Positions 1 through 38,095 of a stretch of DNA of 38,095 nucleotides are shown here, piece by piece. The stretch is from a virus: the IMG/VR virus record IMGVR_UViG_3300024520_000216, positions 1 to 38,095 of that record; one strand, written 5' to 3'. Numbering within the stretch: position 1 is the stretch's first letter; every line of letters begins with the position of its first letter. The notes under the pieces are model-generated. The model was not told the DNA's origin. It saw only the letters and a list, made by a program, of their open reading frames with translations, and made no database searches. Both the position numbers and the translations under genes were made by a program.

Positions 1-143
1 AGGTGAACTTGCTTGCTTTTTAAAAGGTGAAACAGATGTTAGAGAATTTCAAAAGAAAGATGTTAACTTTTGGAATGCTGATTGCTCTAAATCTTCATGG
101 CAAGAAAATCCTCATTGTAAAAATGAATTTGACCTTGGAGAAA
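1..143. repeat. Terminal overlap, left copy (contig circularises)
   Basis: Bases 1-143 match 37953-38095. The first 126 positions are identical, with A/G at 127 and C/T at 133. Both differences are third-codon-position transitions that leave Glu and Asp unchanged in the thymidylate-synthase-family gene. The overlap lies inside one open reading frame, so it is best read as assembly overlap of a circular or circularly permuted genome of about 37,952 bp. The two silent differences suggest two co-existing strains in the sample. Confidence 0.95.
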
Positions 144-652
144 TTTACGGCTACCAATGGCGACGTGGTTTTGGATTTGACCAATTGGAAAAGATCATTC
201 ATGATTTAAAAACAAATCCCTCTTCTAGGCGACATCTTTTAATGACTTTCAACCCCGCGAGTTTAGATAAAGGCTGTTTACCGCCTTGTTATGTTTCCCA
301 TCAATTTTATGTTTCTCATGGAAAGTTTTTAGATATGATGGTGCACCAAAGAAGTGCTGATCTTTGTATTGGTGTTCCTTTTGATTTAGTTTCTTTTGCT
401 ATGTTCCAACATATTATTGCAAAAGAAACAGGATTAATTGCACGGGAATTAAAAGTTGTTTTCGGTGATGTTCATATTTATGATTCACACGTTGAACTTG
501 CTCAGTGCCAAAAAGATCGGCCACATAAAACTTTGCCTTTCTTAACTTTAAATACAGTATCTGGAATAAAAGATTTTAGACATGATAAAATAAAACTTTA
601 CGGCTATCACTATCATTCACCTATTAAATATAATTTTGAGGTACAGCAATGA
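1..652 (+). CDS. Thymidylate synthase family, predicted dCMP (hydroxy)methylase; C-terminal part
   Basis: C-terminal four-fifths of a 267-residue protein whose N-terminus is at 37801-38095. Numbering the joined protein, the family signatures are the arginine pair in PSSRR (127-128), the catalytic cysteine in LPPCY (C147), QRSAD (167-171) and the HIY segment (209-211). The base-specificity position reads GVPFD, giving Asp179 where thymidylate synthases have Asn (E. coli N177). Family knowledge: Asp here is found in T4 dCMP hydroxymethylase, and an Asn-to-Asp change moves thymidylate synthase toward dCMP. I infer a folate-dependent dCMP-modifying enzyme; ordinary thymidylate synthesis remains the alternative. 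Its stop overlaps the polymerase start (ATGA), so the two are translationally coupled. Confidence 0.85.
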   Translation, partial: GELACFLKGETDVREFQKKDVNFWNADCSKSSWQENPHCKNEFDLGEIYGYQWRRGFGFDQLEKIIHDLKTNPSSRRHLLMTFNPASLDKGCLPPCYVSHQFYVSHGKFLDMMVHQRSADLCIGVPFDLVSFAMFQHIIAKETGLIARELKVVFGDVHIYDSHVELAQCQKDRPHKTLPFLTLNTVSGIKDFRHDKIKLYGYHYHSPIKYNFEVQQ

Positions 653-10215: not shown

Positions 10216-12951
10216 TTACTCATCTCCTATTAGACCAAGGGCTTTGCCTTCTCTTTGTTCAATTGAAATAAATTCTCCTGCTCTATCTTCTAAAACGATT
10301 TCAAGTCTAGGAGTTCCACCATCATTATCTACTGCTTCTCTTCCTTGTGTGTCCGGAATTCCTGCAGCTTGAACAAAGTTTGGTGCTACTCCCGCGGGAA
10401 CTACTAACTCATTTGGTTCTAACATTGCTGGAAATCTGTCTCTTGCTCCTCCACTTGCACTCGTTGGCGGAACAAAACCACCGGTGGCCATGCTCGCGAT
10501 ATTCGCTTGTTGTTCAACACCAAAAGCGATAAGTGCACCGGCCGCCGCAATTCCTAAAGCGGGTCCAATAATTGGAATTCCAGCCAAAGAAGTATAGGCT
10601 TTGATAGCACCTTCGGAAGTTGCTATAGCAGCGTTAACTCCAGCCGCAGCTTTTCCGATTCCTTTTAGTGTAGAATTTTTTGATCTTGAAAGTTGAGCAA
10701 GACTACCGGCTGTAGATTTTGCAACGCCAAGTTCATCGCTAGCAAAAAACTTATTAAGATTCGCTAGAATAAAACCGTGTTTTGTTTCATCTTCTATAAA
10801 TTTATTTCTTTCTTTTATTTCATCTGTTAATTTTTTCTCGGCTTGATTTTTTCGTATTTGATTTTCCGTCAAAACTGATTCTTGAATTCTTTCTAGATCT
10901 TCTTGCGCGAGCAAATCTTTTTGTTCTTTATCTAACTCATTTAGTTCAGCTAAAAGTGCTTGTCGCTGTTCTGTTCTTTCTGCCGAAGTTTCATCTTTAG
11001 TATTTTCAAATTCTTCTATCTCAGCAAGTTCGGCTTCATGTTGAAGAGCAAGGTTAGCTAGAACGAGACCTCTTTCTTCTGCGTTTTTAATTAGCCTGGC
11101 GTTTTTAAACTCCTCAGCTATCTCTGCTTTTCTTTGTAGAATTTCTTTTTCGTCTTCTGTCTCGCCCTCGGCTCTTGCTAAGTTAATTGCTTTTAGTTCT
11201 GAATTTTCTTTCTTAGCTGCGTCGATTCTTTTCTGAGTTTCTTTATTTGCTATTTCTGTTTTTTCTTTTGCTAACCTATCAAACTCTTTATTGTCTCCCG
11301 TTTCTTCTTTCTTCTTTTTGGCTTCTGTTTCATCTTTAGCTTTAGTGGCTAGGCGACCTCGTTCTTCTGCACCTTCTTTTGCTGCTTTTAATTCTTCAAG
11401 TTTTGCTATTTCGTCATCTATAGCTTTTAATTTTTTTAGTCCAAACTCAGAAAATTTGGCCGTCTTAGAAACTTCTTGTTGTTTCTTTTTTAATTTATCA
11501 AGTTCAGCATTAATTTGTATTAATGTTTCTGGCTTTTCATCTTTTGAAAGAACTTTAGAAAGACCAAAGATTCCCGCGGCTACTGTTGCAATTCCTGCGA
11601 TTGCAATTCCTATTGGGCCAGTAAGAGCGACCCAAAAAGCAGAGGCCGCAATTCCTGCGGGAACAAATACGGCAGAAATTGCTCCAATAATTGCTGAGAC
11701 TTTTAGAGCAGCTAAAGCAAAAGCCGCTGTCGCTGTAATCCCACCAGTTATTATTGCTCCCCACTTTAAAAAAGTTCCTATGCTAGAAAGTGTTTCTTTA
11801 TCAAGTTCTGAAATAGCTTTGACAATGTTATTGGTCGCTTTGAATAGACTAACCATAGCTGGAGCAAGTTGAGCTCCAATATTTGTTTTTAAATTTTCAA
11901 AATTGTTTAAAAGTTTTTTACCCTGGCTTTCTAAAGTCGCATAGGCTTTTTCTGCTTCTTTATTTAAGGCTGTCGCGTTCTTAGTTTCTTTTGCCGCTAA
12001 GCTTAAAGCTCTTCCAAGCAACTCAGAATTTTTTGCTAAGACAGGGAGAACTTTTAAAACTTCATCACCTTTTAATTTAAACTTAGCAAGAGCCGCGGTT
12101 GTATCTCCGCCGGCTCTTTGTATATTTCCTATACCTTCAATAAAAGATTGAAAGACTGCGGTCGAATCTTCTTTAAAAGTTTTTCTTAATTGCTCTCCCG
12201 TCATTCCTGTTACTTGTTGCAAATCTTCTAAGGCTTTTCCACCGCCTCTTACCGCAGCATCGATTGCGCGAAAAGCCCGGCCCGTAACAGAACCACCAAG
12301 TTGCGCTTGAACGCCAACAGATTTTAGAGCAGCAGAAAGTGCCGCAGCTTTTGCAGAAGAAACTCCGAAGATTGACGTCGACCTGGAAACTTCTGTTGTC
12401 ATTTTTACAATTTCAGATTCTGTCGCGGCAAAGTTATTTCCAAGAGCAACTACAACAGAACCAAAAACGTCGATAGTATCAATGGCTTCCCCAGTAACAT
12501 TTAAAATCCTGGTCAAAGCAACTGCTCCTTGCTCGCCTGTCAAGTCAGTAGCGACTCCAAGTTTTGCAATGGTATCAGTAAATTTTAAAAGATTGGCTTC
12601 TCCGGTAACTCCAAGTTGACCTGCTGCTTGCGCTATTCCTAGAAGTTCATTTGTTGAAAGTGGAATCTCTGAGGCCATCTTCTGGAATTCTTTTCCGAAA
12701 GCCTGAAGCTTTTTGCCGCTGATGTCAGTTGTTTTCCCAACGCCAACTAAAGCTGTTTCATATTTTGCAAATGATCTTGTAACCAGGGCAATCGCTCCAG
12801 CAAAACCTGCGAAAGCAATCGCGGAGGATTTAGCTACGGTAGATAAAACTTTTTCAACATCTTTGGTAGCCTTCTTGACTTTATCCATTTCGTCTAGGAA
12901 GTCTTTGGCTTTACCATTAATTGTGATTATTAAATTATTCTCGTTGGCCAT
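10216..12951 (-). CDS. Tail tape measure protein, 911 aa
   Basis: Classical TP901-type tape measure: a conserved N-terminal PhageMin_Tail region (about 60-350, with GVGKTTDISG and RAFRAIDAAVRGGG), an apolar membrane-like middle (about 390-465), a long charged coiled-coil region (about 480-720) and a C-terminal segment with MATGGFVPP and AMLEPNELVVP. Such proteins set tail length; at roughly 0.15 nm per residue this predicts a tail near 135 nm. The longest gene in the genome, with a tail chaperone just upstream and tail-tip genes downstream, as in siphoviruses. Confidence 0.95.
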   Translation of the reverse strand: MANENNLIITINGKAKDFLDEMDKVKKATKDVEKVLSTVAKSSAIAFAGFAGAIALVTRSFAKYETALVGVGKTTDISGKKLQAFGKEFQKMASEIPLSTNELLGIAQAAGQLGVTGEANLLKFTDTIAKLGVATDLTGEQGAVALTRILNVTGEAIDTIDVFGSVVVALGNNFAATESEIVKMTTEVSRSTSIFGVSSAKAAALSAALKSVGVQAQLGGSVTGRAFRAIDAAVRGGGKALEDLQQVTGMTGEQLRKTFKEDSTAVFQSFIEGIGNIQRAGGDTTAALAKFKLKGDEVLKVLPVLAKNSELLGRALSLAAKETKNATALNKEAEKAYATLESQGKKLLNNFENLKTNIGAQLAPAMVSLFKATNNIVKAISELDKETLSSIGTFLKWGAIITGGITATAAFALAALKVSAIIGAISAVFVPAGIAASAFWVALTGPIGIAIAGIATVAAGIFGLSKVLSKDEKPETLIQINAELDKLKKKQQEVSKTAKFSEFGLKKLKAIDDEIAKLEELKAAKEGAEERGRLATKAKDETEAKKKKEETGDNKEFDRLAKEKTEIANKETQKRIDAAKKENSELKAINLARAEGETEDEKEILQRKAEIAEEFKNARLIKNAEERGLVLANLALQHEAELAEIEEFENTKDETSAERTEQRQALLAELNELDKEQKDLLAQEDLERIQESVLTENQIRKNQAEKKLTDEIKERNKFIEDETKHGFILANLNKFFASDELGVAKSTAGSLAQLSRSKNSTLKGIGKAAAGVNAAIATSEGAIKAYTSLAGIPIIGPALGIAAAGALIAFGVEQQANIASMATGGFVPPTSASGGARDRFPAMLEPNELVVPAGVAPNFVQAAGIPDTQGREAVDNDGGTPRLEIVLEDRAGEFISIEQREGKALGLIGDE

Positions 12952-21342: not shown

Positions 21343-21753
21343 TTACTCCTTTGTGTTTGCTGCGATAAATTCTTCATCAGTTAAATCTAAACTTTTAGCT
21401 AATCTCTTTTCTTCAGCTGAAAGATTTACTGTTTTAGAATCTACGGTGTTGTTACTTCCGGAAGCTTCAACATTTACTTTCTCATTAAGAGCAAGAACTT
21501 CTAGCATTCCTTTACCTTCATTAAGTGCAACCAATTGAGCCGCAGAAATTTTATTCTCATCAAAAAGTTTTTGATTGAGAGCTTCTTTCTTTTTCTTTTC
21601 AACTTCGGCTTCTAATTCTTCAATCTTATTACTAAGATCAACATTTTTAGCTTCCGAAGCATCTAGCCTTGTTTGCACCGCTACAACTTTACCATTCAAC
21701 TCAAGCAATTTGCTTTCATGAACAGAAAGATCGATAGTGTTTTCTTTTGACAT
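21343..21753 (-). CDS. Nested scaffold protein from internal start, 136 aa
   Basis: In frame within the protease gene, ATG 21753 follows AGGAG with an eight-base spacer. The product would be the coiled-coil-rich C-terminus without the protease. In Mu the scaffold Z is made in just this way from within gene I, and lambda does the same with C and Nu3. The internal site and its position exactly between domains are visible; translation from it is inference. Confidence 0.65.
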   Translation of the reverse strand: MSKENTIDLSVHESKLLELNGKVVAVQTRLDASEAKNVDLSNKIEELEAEVEKKKKEALNQKLFDENKISAAQLVALNEGKGMLEVLALNEKVNVEASGSNNTVDSKTVNLSAEEKRLAKSLDLTDEEFIAANTKE

Positions 21754-22602
21754 TTCTTCTTCTCCTGTTTTGGTTTTGTTATTTAATTCAACAATAGCAT
21801 CCATTTTTAAAAATGGATAATTTGTTAACGCTCCTCCCAAAAGAGTCGGCCCGTGAGCTTCTTCAGTATGAGGATGAACATAATTAAATCTAAATTCTGG
21901 ACTGAAATACCGATACTCTTTTCCCGCTAAAGCGGTAGTACCTTTTGTGTTCCATACGACTTGCCCGTAAAGTGTTTGTTTATCAAAAGATAAAAACACA
22001 TCTTTAAACCAACCAAATGCCTCATTCTTCTGGTGGTCCTCATTCACGGCCAAATCAACTCCAACAATTTTTGATTCAAAATTATTCGCCATTGATTCTA
22101 AAACTTCTTCTGTTATATTTATTTCTCCATAAGACGGGTGATGCCCTTTTGCAACTCTCGCGATTTCTATTACAAAAGGAATACCTTCGCTAAGATTAAT
22201 TGTCTGGTTATCGCTAAAAAGTCTTGAGCATCCTAAGAGCTCTTCCCCTTTATCATTAAAGTTAATTAATGAATCGGACATTATAGGTGTTAAGTCTGCT
22301 GCATGGGCAGTGACTCCTCTTCTTATTTCTATTTCAATTTCGGTACTAATATCAATTTGAGAAGGAGAAACTAAAGACACAATAAAAAAAGAATCATCAC
22401 CAAAAATCTTTGGCTCATAAGAAATATACTTATCATTTAAATATTCTCTAACTTCTTTTTCATCTTTATAAACCTTTTTGTCAAAGCTCATTGTGTGGAT
22501 GATAGTTTTATCTCCAATGTTATTATCCTGAAGAAATTTTTCAGTGTCAACATCGGCCTCGAGAATATTTTGCTCTCTGATTAATGATTTTAAAAAACTC
22601 AT
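21343..22602 (-). CDS. Head maturation protease with C-terminal scaffold (Mu gpI-like), 419 aa
   Basis: Three parts. The N-terminus (1-130) may be an XkdF-like extension. A Mu I-type protease core covers about 140-280, with NEDHQ (H190) and GWF (197-199), then EYRYFSPEF and LLGGALTNYPFL, which closely match Mu-type head proteases. A coiled-coil scaffold (284-419, KIEELEAEVEKKKKEAL) follows. It should cleave head proteins during maturation. An internal ATG at 21753 with its own ribosome-binding site could produce the scaffold alone. Start ATG 22602 overlaps the previous stop (ATGA). Confidence 0.88.
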   Translation of the reverse strand: MSFLKSLIREQNILEADVDTEKFLQDNNIGDKTIIHTMSFDKKVYKDEKEVREYLNDKYISYEPKIFGDDSFFIVSLVSPSQIDISTEIEIEIRRGVTAHAADLTPIMSDSLINFNDKGEELLGCSRLFSDNQTINLSEGIPFVIEIARVAKGHHPSYGEINITEEVLESMANNFESKIVGVDLAVNEDHQKNEAFGWFKDVFLSFDKQTLYGQVVWNTKGTTALAGKEYRYFSPEFRFNYVHPHTEEAHGPTLLGGALTNYPFLKMDAIVELNNKTKTGEEEMSKENTIDLSVHESKLLELNGKVVAVQTRLDASEAKNVDLSNKIEELEAEVEKKKKEALNQKLFDENKISAAQLVALNEGKGMLEVLALNEKVNVEASGSNNTVDSKTVNLSAEEKRLAKSLDLTDEEFIAANTKE

Positions 22603-22799
22603 AATATTCCTTCATCGTCTTCAAATACATCGCCCATATATTTTTCGTTAAATGTTCGTATTACTAATCTTAATTTTCTTTGTGCTATTTGTTTTGCGAC
22701 AGCTTCAACATACCCTGGATCGCAATGAGCGGCAAAAGATTTATATATCGCAGTTGCCTCCTCTTTATAAGCTTCAATCATTTTTTGCGCGTCGTTCAT
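22599..22799 (-). CDS. Hypothetical protein between portal and protease, 66 aa
   Basis: Coupled by ATGA overlaps to the portal gene upstream and the protease gene downstream. A helical soluble sequence (MIEAYKEEATAIYKSFAAH, AKQIAQRKLRLVIRTF) with an acidic end. No family recognised; the strict coupling suggests a small head-assembly accessory. Confidence 0.75.
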   Translation of the reverse strand: MNDAQKMIEAYKEEATAIYKSFAAHCDPGYVEAVAKQIAQRKLRLVIRTFNEKYMGDVFEDDEGIL

Positions 22800-25021
22800 A
22801 GTGTTATACTCTTTTTAGCTGTTGCGCTTGGTGATAAAGATTCAACGTTTAAATTTTCCGTTCCTTTACTCACTTTTAAATTAGCTCTTAAATATGATTT
22901 ACAATTATGATGCAGAGGCGGGGTATACCTTAGTGACTCTGCATCATTTGTTTTAAAAGTTGTTCCTGCTAACTCTTTACAGATTGTTGTTTGAGGTGCG
23001 ATATTAACAAAAGTAAAAGAATGAATTTCATCAAGCACATCTGAATTAAAAAAGAAAGTATCTCTTCCTTCATTGACCATTAAAGCTGAGGCATTATTTC
23101 CTTTTACTTTTACTTGGTTAGATGTCGCAAATTGATCGGCCTCATCTTCAAGAGCTTGGCGGATGATATTCTCATCAGCTACTTTAGTTTCCATAGATGA
23201 GAACGTGAAGTCTATTCTCTTTTTAAGATCGTTCAGAGAATCTTCTGATATAAGATCGGCTTGTTTTGCTACTAAGACTTGAAGAGCTCCAGGAGTTTTA
23301 GAAAATTCATTAAGTTTAATGTCGTCAATGTTTCCAAACATCTCGCTCATTCTTTCTATATCTCTTTTAGAAGAATTTAATTCTATATTCTTTTGACTTG
23401 GTACTTCTGTTCTGGCCATCTTTATAGAAAGATTTACTGTTTGCGCTAAGCTTCTTTTTAAATCTTTTTTAAGACTATTCACTCCGCCCATTTTAACTTT
23501 ATTAGTTGCATTTTGTTTTTTAGTTTCTGGAAGTTGTTTATATTTTACCATTACATCATTAATATATTTAGCTGAAGAGAATTCTAATGCTTCTTGTATA
23601 TCCTCCGAAATCTTTTCTCCCTGGTCGACAATTAATGTTCTAGGAGTTTTCTTTTTCTTCTTAGAAGATAATTCTACATCTTCCGGAGTAGGCTCAATAT
23701 TATCATCAGGATTATTATCTGGATTATTATCTGGATTAGTGGTCTCATCATTAATTACCTCTTTGTTATCCATCGCCTCACCTTCTGCTTTCTTTGGAAG
23801 GTTGTGCGCTTTTCTAACATGGTCTTCTAGTAATTCATCAGGAGTTATAATCTGAGCTTTAGCATAGCCGGTAATAACTTCCATAAGTTCTTTACCAGCT
23901 TCATCAGCGATTCCATTGTGTACAAGTTTTGGATATAGAGTTGGATCAATCTCATCCCCAAAGTTTAGGCGCATTAATTGCGGAATAAGTTGAAGATTAA
24001 AAACGTCCGCAATTTTATCGGCGATGTATTCAATACCATCTTTAAAAAAATCTGCAGAAATTCCAGTAGAAGAACCTACCGCAGAATTTCCGCCGATTCC
24101 CATTTCTAACCACATGCCAACTAATGATCCTACAATTTCTTCGTTTTCAGATTTGATAGCACTCTGAACTTTTGAAGGGTCATAAGTTCCTGTCTGATAA
24201 TAGTCTAAAGTATATCCGGCAGGAGTAACAAAGAAAGCCTGCTCAGCTTGCGTAAATGCAGCAAGCTGAGTTATGGCGTCCTCATATTCTTCTGAATCAT
24301 ATTCAACCCCTTCAGGCAAACCTAAATGGGGAACAGGAATCGCGGCTCGTTCTATACCTATAGCTTGAAGCTGTTTGTATAAAAGTTTTCTTTTGTAGTT
24401 GCCATACAGCATGCGACAAAAAGGATAGCCAGTATCATTTCCTTTCTTTTCGTTATAAAAGATAAGAAGATTTTCTGCAGGAATATCAACATCTATTTCA
24501 ACTTCACCAGATTGTAATTGATGAATAAATTTTAAAATACCTTCGCTTGAATATTTCCATTTGTCCAAAGTTCTTTGGTCTCTAAAGGCGATATTTAAAA
24601 GGCCCGTGTATGGGCCGAATTCTTTTGAGTTTCTATTTTTATGAATTACTTCAAACACAGAATGGCCGTGCCAAGGGAAAGTCAGTATCTCATCCAACTT
24701 AGAAATAAATCCCTCGGGAATATCTTTAAAAATAATTTGCTTTAGTAAAGCAGCAACATCTAAATCTTTATCTTCTGCTGAAGCGGGTTCAATTTCCCAT
24801 ACTGCAGATTTAATTGGGTTAGATGTCGCGTGGTAAAGTTTTCTAATCTGAGAATCGGACAAAAGCATCTTGGCAAAAGTCTCTTGCCCTTGCACGCCGT
24901 TTAATTCTGAAATGTAATCATTTTCCACAACGTCCGCGGTAATTAAAGTTCCGGAGCGTCCAATAGATTTTAGATTTGGTTTAGGCTGTTCTTCTTTTTC
25001 AGTGAATTCTTCTACTGCCAT
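22796..25021 (-). CDS. Portal protein (DUF935/Mu gp29-like) fused to Mu F-like head protein, 741 aa
   Basis: Residues about 1-400 match DUF935-type portals (KMLLSDSQIRKLYH, ILTFPWHGHSVFEV, FRDQRTLDKW, EMGIGGNSAVGSSTG). These form the ring through which DNA enters. A low-complexity linker with repeated NPDN units (about 418-450) leads to a C-terminal region of about 290 residues ending in the Mu F signature: TTICKEL, then PPLHHNC near 701-707. In Mu these are two genes, gp29 and gp30. A consensus-like promoter and a TTTAC array lie just upstream, so this gene heads the head-structural transcript. ATG 25021 follows GGAG. Confidence 0.9.
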   Translation of the reverse strand: MAVEEFTEKEEQPKPNLKSIGRSGTLITADVVENDYISELNGVQGQETFAKMLLSDSQIRKLYHATSNPIKSAVWEIEPASAEDKDLDVAALLKQIIFKDIPEGFISKLDEILTFPWHGHSVFEVIHKNRNSKEFGPYTGLLNIAFRDQRTLDKWKYSSEGILKFIHQLQSGEVEIDVDIPAENLLIFYNEKKGNDTGYPFCRMLYGNYKRKLLYKQLQAIGIERAAIPVPHLGLPEGVEYDSEEYEDAITQLAAFTQAEQAFFVTPAGYTLDYYQTGTYDPSKVQSAIKSENEEIVGSLVGMWLEMGIGGNSAVGSSTGISADFFKDGIEYIADKIADVFNLQLIPQLMRLNFGDEIDPTLYPKLVHNGIADEAGKELMEVITGYAKAQIITPDELLEDHVRKAHNLPKKAEGEAMDNKEVINDETTNPDNNPDNNPDDNIEPTPEDVELSSKKKKKTPRTLIVDQGEKISEDIQEALEFSSAKYINDVMVKYKQLPETKKQNATNKVKMGGVNSLKKDLKRSLAQTVNLSIKMARTEVPSQKNIELNSSKRDIERMSEMFGNIDDIKLNEFSKTPGALQVLVAKQADLISEDSLNDLKKRIDFTFSSMETKVADENIIRQALEDEADQFATSNQVKVKGNNASALMVNEGRDTFFFNSDVLDEIHSFTFVNIAPQTTICKELAGTTFKTNDAESLRYTPPLHHNCKSYLRANLKVSKGTENLNVESLSPSATAKKSITL

Positions 25022-36233: not shown

Positions 36234-36367
36234 ATGAAAAATTTGAGCAAGATGAACTTGTCGACCAGGTAGAAGAGGAGAAAAATATTTACCTAATTAA
36301 AATCCCTAAAAATTTAAAATTTTATTTTCGCACTTACGCGAACAAGAAAACATGGAGACGAATATGA
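36234..36367 (+). pseudogene. Small ORF with apparent frameshift or non-standard start
   Basis: ATG 36234 opens a 12-codon ORF ending at 36272, but an overlapping frame stays open to TGA 36367, which overlaps the next start as ATGA like other genes here. One extra A in the five-A run at 36237-36241 would join ATG to that frame and give a 44-residue protein (MKKFEQDELVDQ, IYLIKIPKNLKFYF, then a basic end). Alternatively, translation could begin at ATT 36287, six bases after GAGGAG, giving 26 residues. Sequencing error, real frameshift or AUU start cannot be separated here. Confidence 0.5.
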
Positions 36368-36882
36368 CGAAACTTATTACACCAGAATTTAGAGGTAGCT
36401 TTGTAACAGTGATGACACCAAAAGCTTTTTCAGCAGACCACGCCGCAAAATATTCTATAGTTGTTGCATTGCCTAAAGAAGATCAATTTTTTAAAGATTT
36501 AGATAAAGCAATGAATGATGCAGCAATGGAAAAGTGGGGAGAGATTCCTAAAAAGTTAAAAACTTTTTTAAAAGACGGTGATAAAGAAGATGAGAAATAT
36601 GATTGGGCGGGGAAAACTGTTTTCACTGCTTCAAATAAATCTCAACCAGGCATTGTTGTTAGAACAGAGCAAGGACTTGTTGAACCTATGCGCGATGAAG
36701 ATATTTATTCAGGTGCTTTCTATCGAGCATCCGTTAGACCTTACGCTTATGAATATAATAAAACTAAAGGCGTTGCAATTTCTTTAGACAATGTTATGAA
36801 AACAAGAGATGGTGAAAAATTCGCTTCAAGAACCAAAGCTCAAGAAGATTTTGCGGATTTTGTTGAAGGTGACTGGGACTAA
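36364..36882 (+). CDS. DUF2815 putative ssDNA-binding protein, 172 aa
   Basis: Matches the DUF2815 family, which accompanies DUF2800 and PolA in phage replication modules and has an OB-fold SSB-like character. Visible family-like segments are SFVTVMTPKAF, KYSIVVALPK, IYSGAFYRASVRPYAY and VAISLDNVMKTRDG. The acidic tail (DFADFVEGDWD) resembles the protein-interaction tail of SSB proteins. I chose ATG 36364, with GGAG six bases upstream and an ATGA overlap with the preceding frame; ATG 36352 lacks a site. A strong terminator follows. Confidence 0.88.
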   Translation: MTKLITPEFRGSFVTVMTPKAFSADHAAKYSIVVALPKEDQFFKDLDKAMNDAAMEKWGEIPKKLKTFLKDGDKEDEKYDWAGKTVFTASNKSQPGIVVRTEQGLVEPMRDEDIYSGAFYRASVRPYAYEYNKTKGVAISLDNVMKTRDGEKFASRTKAQEDFADFVEGDWD

Positions 36883-37330: not shown

Positions 37331-37804
37331 ATGAAAAATAAAGAAAAAGATAACCGCTTTGAGTATCTTGATAAAGATAATCGCTATATATATCTTGATG
37401 AAGAAAACAAAGAAAACTCTTTTGATTCTCCAAAAGAGATTGCTGAAAAAATAGGCGCTTCAATTTTAAAAGTAGAAGAAGCCATGAAATTTGATAATGG
37501 TAAACCGCCAGTTCATCTTGTTGATAAAGAATTAATTTTAGAGACAGCAAAGATTTTAGGCTACGGGGCAGAAAAATATGAAGCGCATAATTGGAGAATA
37601 GGTATTCCCATTTCAAGATATTTTTCTGCAGCACAAAGGCATTTACTTGCATGGAATGATGGGGAGGATATTGATCCTGAATCTGGTCTCCTTCATTTGG
37701 CCCATGCTTCTTGCAATTTAATGTTCTTACTTTATCATACAAAAAATAATCCTCAGCTTGACGACCGTTTTAATCTTGAGAAAAATAAAGGCGGTAAAGA
37801 ATGA
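37331..37804 (+). CDS. DUF5664-type (dATP/dGTP diphosphohydrolase-like) protein, 157 aa
   Basis: The core KFDNGKPPVHLVDKELI, GAEKYEAHNW, RHLLAWNDGEDIDPESGLLHLAHASCN is the DUF5664 pattern, annotated as the N-terminal domain of dATP/dGTP diphosphohydrolases. His and Asp residues H104, D113, H122 and H125 are candidates for metal or substrate binding. The first 30 residues hold a tandem repeat, DNRFEYLDK then DNRYIYLDE, absent from most relatives I know. The stop overlaps the next start (ATGA), coupling it to the thymidylate-synthase-family gene. Confidence 0.82.
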   Translation: MKNKEKDNRFEYLDKDNRYIYLDEENKENSFDSPKEIAEKIGASILKVEEAMKFDNGKPPVHLVDKELILETAKILGYGAEKYEAHNWRIGIPISRYFSAAQRHLLAWNDGEDIDPESGLLHLAHASCNLMFLLYHTKNNPQLDDRFNLEKNKGGKE

Positions 37805-38095
37805 TTAATTATATTTTGTTAATGAAAAAAGTCCTAGCAAAAGGGCAAAGTCATAACGGAACGCTTTCACTATTTGGTGAGGGCTTGTCTTATGACCTTA
37901 GACGTGGTTTTCCGATAGTAACAACCAGGAAAATAAATTATAAAGCTGCTTTAGGTGAACTTGCTTGCTTTTTAAAAGGTGAAACAGATGTTAGAGAATT
38001 TCAAAAGAAAGATGTTAACTTTTGGAATGCTGATTGCTCTAAATCTTCATGGCAAGAAAATCCTCATTGTAAAAATGAGTTTGATCTTGGAGAAA
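37801..38095 (+). CDS. Thymidylate synthase family, predicted dCMP (hydroxy)methylase; N-terminal part
   Basis: Residues 1-98 of the protein completed at 1-652. Visible here are SHNGTLSLFG (17-26) in place of the usual DRTGTGT phosphate loop, RRGFPIVTTRK (34-44), and GELACFLKG with E53 matching the catalytic Glu of the family (E. coli E58). The missing arginine in the first loop is a second departure from ordinary thymidylate synthases. It begins at an ATGA overlap with the DUF5664 gene and leads on to the polymerase, forming one coupled nucleotide-replication operon. Confidence 0.9.
   Translation, partial: MINYILLMKKVLAKGQSHNGTLSLFGEGLSYDLRRGFPIVTTRKINYKAALGELACFLKGETDVREFQKKDVNFWNADCSKSSWQENPHCKNEFDLGE
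37953..38095. repeat. Terminal overlap, right copy
   Basis: Right-hand copy of the 143-bp overlap described at 1-143. Joining the copies rebuilds a single 267-residue thymidylate-synthase homologue running from 37801 across the junction to 652. Confidence 0.95.

Follow-up and report, generated by a model that had tools for sequence, protein, structure and literature searches.

Cytosine modification as a shield against bacterial enzymes is already known in a few phages. The cytosine of phage Xp12 is 5-methylcytosine (5mC; PMC7653180), and 5 of 31 restriction enzymes cut the DNA of AXL1, a phage close to Xp12 (PMC9206674, PMC7653180). In the dCMP hydroxymethylase of T4 (dCH, gp42), Asp145 is located three residues before the catalytic Cys (position Cys minus 3) and activates the water molecule that leads to the hydroxymethyl product, while thymidylate synthase (TS) has a Leu at this place and possesses a sealing tail that is missing in T4 dCH; the criteria given for a T4-type dCH are Asp or Glu at Cys minus 3 and, at the second position ahead of the active-site Tyr, Ser or Thr (PMC6400193). 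For the MetaGPA phage contigs, PMC8670742 reports positions 177 and 147 (EcTS numbering) as the top positions splitting the TS of cytosine-modified from those of other contigs, with mostly Asp at position 177 in the TS from modified contigs, and a co-occurrence of TS and PRA-PH. According to the same source, an Asn-to-Asp exchange at position 177 turns a canonical TS from dUMP to dCMP, which agrees with what a reading of the present DNA from its sequence only had stated about such variants.

The stretch of DNA analyzed here (the window) is an IMG/VR virus record of 38,095 bases with a G+C content of 34.3%. A gene for a TS homologue is split between its two ends, with the following features.

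37801..38095, + strand: TS homologue, 5' part; ATG-initiated frame with residues 1-98, the contig end splitting codon 99; PF00303, 2.7e-18
1..652, + strand: TS homologue, 3' part; stop codon at 650-652; PF00303, 8.8e-61
1..143: end repeat, left copy; 2/143 mismatches to the right copy
37953..38095: end repeat, right copy; 2/143 mismatches to the left copy
278..280, + strand: codon of Leu144, at Cys minus 3, the place of Asp145 in T4 dCH
287..289, + strand: codon of the catalytic Cys147, equivalent to EcTS Cys146
290..292, + strand: codon of Tyr148, equivalent to EcTS His147, the second discriminating position in PMC8670742
383..385, + strand: codon GAT of Asp179, equivalent to EcTS Asn177 and T4 dCH Asp179

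Joined across the contig ends, the reading frame runs from 37801 to 38095 and then from 144 to 652 and encodes 267 aa. Both mismatches between the copies of the end repeat are silent, and the identical 267-aa protein results from either copy, so that the TS homologue with C147 and QRSAD claimed by the sequence-only reading across the contig ends was indeed found. The window genome is probably circularly permuted or terminally redundant and probably originates from a mixed population; the two differences between the repeats are perhaps the reason that the record carries no end-repeat annotation. Rfam and tRNA scans of the window were empty. A Mu-like portal (PF06074) and a Mu-like protease (PF10123) occur alongside a tape measure protein (window 21343-25021 and 10216-12951).

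With 243.8 bits against a curated Pfam cut-off of 24.3, the joined protein matches PF00303, and Pfam, NCBIfam, and PHROGs alike name it thymidylate synthase. A multiple alignment showed that the catalytic Cys, Glu58, Tyr94, R126, R127, R166, S167, D169, His207, and Tyr209 are kept. At the pyrimidine site, alignment with EcTS and T4 dCH placed an Asp, not an Asn: Asp179 in the motif GVPFD replaces the Asn, as had been claimed, and the matching residue of T4 dCH is likewise Asp179, again as claimed. The Arg reported as missing from the first phosphate loop is absent, with Gln16 opposite the Arg of solved TS in the phmmer alignment and a gap in the EcTS R21 column of the multiple alignment. The C terminus is EVQQ in place of an APVAI-like end. 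Loss of Arg21 and the altered tail end could change catalysis.

A scan of viral contigs with the window TS as a single-sequence query yielded no relative. With the window polymerase as query, one related contig of 40 kb was found (L174, the sister; polymerase identity of 63%). Its TS is uninterrupted, comprises 269 aa with 57% identity to that of the window, and contains PPCYV, QRSAD, and the same GVPFD, a loop without Arg21, and a tail resembling that of the window protein. Both contigs have the gene order ssDNA-binding protein, PRA-PH, PF18909, TS, and polymerase in common, with identities of 67% for the ssDNA-binding protein, 68% for PRA-PH, and 75% (100 aa) for PF18909. The model of the L174 TS (pLDDT 96.5) could be superimposed on residues 1-264 of EcTS (1tys) with an rmsd of 1.1 over 253 positions, a Z score of 36.3, and 35% identity, and T4 dCH was not among the 50 structure-search matches listed, an absence from which no conclusion is drawn. 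Two bases differ between the end repeats and the Asp codon is one base away from an Asn codon, which would fit an artefact, either a false join of the contig ends or a one-base error generating the Asp. Such an artefact has a negligible probability, however: the unbroken TS with the same Asp in the sister shows that neither the join nor the Asp is spurious.

The comparison set of viral TS was obtained with a degenerate DNA pattern over the stretch from QRS to GxPFD, in an Asp and an Asn version. With the Asp pattern, 25 viral loci were obtained, all containing a TS frame; the Asn pattern yielded at least 120, from which the 80 among the matches listed were used. Since the patterns require particular neighboring residues, and the Asp pattern missed L174, these counts are no census of TS. 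Position 147 was His in 9, Met in 8, Pro in 5, Leu in 2, and Cys in 1 of the 25 Asp loci, compared to 76 His, 1 Lys, and 3 gaps in the 80 Asn loci used of the at least 120; in the window and in L174, it is Tyr. A residue other than His was present at this position in 16 of 25 Asp loci (Fisher 1.7e-11 for 25 versus 77 rows, which are not independent because three of the Asp loci nearly duplicate other ones). These counts agree with PMC8670742 as to the two positions. The 9 of 25 Asp loci with His at 147 are a point against the interpretation of the window enzyme as a dCMP methylase.

Overall similarity is no predictor of the Asp: six phage TS inspected among the closest by tblastn (Barc2635, Jflix2, Y10, E2, BSP38, and MD-2021a) were all Asn-type. 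The window TS formed a long branch in a tree of 106 rows without L174; in a second tree of 74 rows, L174 was included and the longer Asn rows were thinned to one in two. Both were quick trees without bootstrap, and only one group of seven rows from the second tree was relied on (SH-aLRT 99), which contained the TS of the window and L174 together with four Asp-type TS (L020, L013, L010, and L025) and that of L069, with Asn and His. On these quick trees, the Asp state required 9 or 10 changes, 5 or 4 of them forced by well supported branches, which means that the Asp-type TS was gained, or reverted, repeatedly. The TS of L069 (1418-2308), with Asn177 and His147 and nested in a mostly Asp-type group, is a possible reversion.

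The neighboring genes of the TS homologue in the window are as follows.

36352..36882, + strand: ssDNA-binding protein, located upstream within this row of genes; PF10991, 130.9 bits
36960..37313, + strand: PRA-PH or MazG-like nucleotide pyrophosphohydrolase, candidate dCTP pyrophosphatase; PF01503, 27.4 bits versus a cut-off of 21.3
37331..37804, + strand: PF18909 (DUF5664) protein similar to dNTP pyrophosphohydrolases, flanked by PRA-PH and TS; 113.2 bits
649..2598, + strand: family A DNA polymerase, overlapping the TS stop by 4 bases; PF00476, 79.4 bits

A PDB search matched the window PRA-PH to the MazG-like DR2231 and gave no credible match for the PF18909 protein. To evaluate the neighborhood, 50 viral records were surveyed, many of which may be fragments: 22 Asp-type records (the 25 loci without 3 near copies) and 28 Asn-type records, taken in order from the 80 used loci, skipping L041, L042, L047, and L067. 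Of the 22 Asp-type records, 7 had a PRA-PH no more than 1 kb from the TS, compared to none of the 28 Asn-type records (p 0.0017); one of the seven scored below the family cut-off (L016), and two were on the strand opposite to the TS (L011 and L016). Anywhere in the record, the numbers were 7 of 22 and 1 of 28, the latter about 43 kb away from the TS. A further point against the methylase interpretation is that no PRA-PH was seen in 15 of 22 Asp-type records, some of them fragments. PF18909 was present in 2 of 22 Asp-type records, each time immediately adjoining the TS, and in none of the 28 Asn-type records. It adjoins an Asp-type TS in the window (37331-37804), in L174 (4784-5182), in L010 (1777-2085), and in L025; the row in L010 is PF18909, Asp-type TS, PRA-PH, and deaminase, with 35% identity to the window for PRA-PH and 55% for PF18909.

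Among named phages, 234 records matched the window PRA-PH at an E value of 1e-3 or lower, Roseobacter phages best; the others included Xp12-like phages of Xanthomonas and Stenotrophomonas as well as numerous Microbacterium phages. Inspection of 13 neighborhoods, 12 taken from these matches plus that of AXL1, whose protein was aligned separately, revealed a TS within about 3 kb in nine, and all nine were Asp-type: AXL1, DoCa10, Donnerlittchen, ZQG1, V45iii, RDJL1, MedDCM-OCT-S28-C10, AXL_3, and Nattles, the last with about 3 kb between TS and PRA-PH. These nine cases are not independent, since at least AXL1, DoCa10, Donnerlittchen, and ZQG1 belong to one family. No TS was present within the inspected PRA-PH stretch of SunnyD, Swervy, Phrappuccino, and Rctr197k.

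The PF18909 member of Arthrobacter phage Wayne converts dATP, dUTP, and dGTP to their monophosphates (PMC12884076). PF18909 and a weak match to DpoZ below the cut-off suggested a phage with 2-aminoadenine (Z) in its DNA, and this candidate was rejected: PurZ (PF00709) had no match in the window record, which makes a Z genome unlikely and means that PF18909 is found here in a setting different from 2-aminoadenine synthesis. A search for DUF5664 or MazZ together with TS or cytosine in the literature, as far as the sources were accessible, found no link between PF18909 and cytosine modification, which is not proof of absence.

A protein of the dCMP deaminase family was encoded in 10 of 22 Asp-type compared to 3 of 28 Asn-type viral records. 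This would fit a thymidylate by-pass, in which 5-methyl-dCMP is deaminated to dTMP instead of being used for DNA modification, and a paper on Xp12 from 1982 reportedly announces in its title a new thymidylate biosynthesis. Such a by-pass is very unlikely for the window, which has no match to PF00383, although a host enzyme could serve, and the DNA of Xp12 itself contains 5mC (PMC7653180).

Asp-type TS are also present in cells. In bacterial and archaeal genomes, the Asp pattern matched at 17 loci; a TS frame was present at 13 of them, and 9 of these 13 were from CPR bacteria; MAGs of a Proteobacterium (L158) and a member of the Halobacteriales (L168) also contain an Asp-type TS. Eight of the nine CPR genomes, all except L161, were searched; they had been picked by their match to the Asp pattern, with completeness not stated. 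Each encodes a single PF00303 protein, Asp-type in 8 of 8 (L162, L165, L166, and L169-L173; L188-L195), and ThyX had no match in these eight genomes. The three Uhrbacteria also have Tyr at position 147, and in one of them (L173) the TS has neighbors matching dUTPase, DHFR, a dCMP deaminase family, and a family of dCTP deaminase-like proteins. Asp177 is thus not confined to phage DNA modification, and the CPR cells use an Asp177 TS, on dUMP or via dCMP.

This indicates that Asp by itself is no proof, and the argument of the sequence-only reading, which had been built on this single residue, is weakened even though the Asp is real. An ordinary TS that converts dUMP to dTMP despite the Asp would agree with the family models, which score above cut-off as thymidylate synthase, with the Asp-type TS as the sole one detected in eight CPR genomes, and with the DHFR-, dUTPase-, or deaminase-like genes near the CPR TS in three scanned loci. 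It is improbable for the window, nevertheless, given the switch of a canonical TS from dUMP to dCMP by the Asn-to-Asp exchange (PMC8670742), the Tyr at 147, the PRA-PH neighbor, their conservation in the sister, and the Asp in all nine TS near relatives of the window PRA-PH. No second TS was found in the window. Recognition of dCMP by the TS homologue is well supported by Asp at 177, Tyr at 147, and the PRA-PH neighbor, all kept in the sister, and this part of the interpretation is held with higher confidence than the product or role of a methylase.

On these grounds, the window probably encodes a phage dCMP methylase that feeds 5mC into the phage DNA. The methyl product is favored because the TS of the window and of the sister have Leu at the place of T4 Asp145 and a tail of TS length: the window TS aligns to the end of the sister's, and the sister model spans EcTS 1-264. 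Two residues before the active-site Tyr, the window has Glu (GEIYG) and L174 Lys (GKIYG), neither being Ser or Thr. Alternatively, the enzyme may be a dCMP hydroxymethylase, with 5-hydroxymethylcytosine in the phage DNA. It shares its Asp with T4 gp42; relatives of the window PRA-PH accompany a TS with Asp at Cys minus 3 in the phages Nattles (Microbacterium) and AXL_3 (Stenotrophomonas); and the tail end and Arg21, which assist closure of the active site in TS, are changed, so that water might enter. The hydroxymethylase is unlikely, however, with Leu144 at the place of the essential Asp145 of T4 dCH, Glu instead of Ser before the Tyr, a tail not shortened as in T4 dCH, and neither a glycosyltransferase nor a carbamoyltransferase found in a scan of 30 window proteins. 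The sequence-only reading had left both modified bases possible: its dCMP-based part stands, and 5-methyl-dCMP is the likelier product compared to 5-hydroxymethyl-dCMP. No glycosyltransferase had been noticed then, and the Pfam scan of those 30 proteins found none, many small ORFs lying outside the scan. The choice of methyl is not a firm one, given the lost Arg21, the unusual tail sequence, the TS of Nattles and AXL_3, and the Asn at Cys minus 3 in the Xp12-like TS inspected, so that the methylase signature is not uniform.

For the dCMP methylase, a pathway can be proposed from the gene, its residues, its neighbors, and their conservation in the sister. The PRA-PH, and perhaps the PF18909 protein, would split dCTP to dCMP, which both depletes the unmodified dCTP and provides the substrate. 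Asp179 of the TS homologue would bind dCMP, Cys147 would attack C6, and a one-carbon unit from methylene-tetrahydrofolate would be reduced to the methyl group as in TS, yielding 5-methyl-dCMP. Kinases, none of which was found among the window proteins scanned, would convert this to 5-methyl-dCTP, and the phage polymerase would insert it into the progeny DNA. The phage DNA should then contain modified cytosine and be resistant to many host restriction enzymes. DHFR had no match in the window, which speaks against a methylase, as this enzyme is a consumer of tetrahydrofolate.

This adds one more phage lineage, here represented by metagenome contigs only, that is likely to replace its cytosine, and it provides a small, testable cassette. 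Tentatively, PRA-PH, PF18909, and the Asp-type TS may form a compact cassette of variable order (window, L174, L010, and L025), with a TS lineage that became specific for cytosine independently of T4 and Xp12 and lost Arg21 in the window and its sister; the cassette would serve wholesale replacement by 5mC, with PF18909 exerting a further control on the dNTP pool. Residue-level annotation is needed because the family models still say thymidylate synthase; it should check positions 177 and 147, Cys minus 3, and a PRA-PH neighbor. The Asp-type TS of the CPR bacteria turn the meaning of Asp177 into a testable question.

Compared to the known systems, the window enzyme has the fold, length, and catalytic residues in common with E. 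coli ThyA, which acts on dUMP, but has Asp for Asn177, Tyr for His147, no Arg21, and a different tail end. With T4 gp42 it shares the TS superfamily, the catalytic Cys, and the Asp for cytosine; the window enzyme lacks the Asp at Cys minus 3 and the Ser two residues before the Tyr and keeps the C-terminal tail, and a glucosyltransferase was not found among the proteins scanned. The Asp177-type TS of MetaGPA (PMC8670742) share Asp at 177, an altered position 147, and a PRA-PH neighbor with the window, which differs in being known from its sequence instead of from DNA shown to be modified, in having neither a dCMP deaminase match nor a carbamoyltransferase that could be found, and in the PF18909 gene between PRA-PH and TS. 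For the Xp12-like phages, the comparison used the relatives AXL1, DoCa10, Donnerlittchen, ZQG1, V45iii, and RDJL1 and not Xp12 itself. Their Asp-type TS directly adjoins a pyrophosphohydrolase homologous to the window PRA-PH, and a family A polymerase and a Cas4 nuclease close by in AXL1 were counted as a further likeness. Their annotated operons carry an additional dCMP deaminase and mostly DHFR, too, and their TS, with GLPYD and Asn at Cys minus 3, is very divergent from that of the window, which, judged by these sequences, looks like an independently changed TS.
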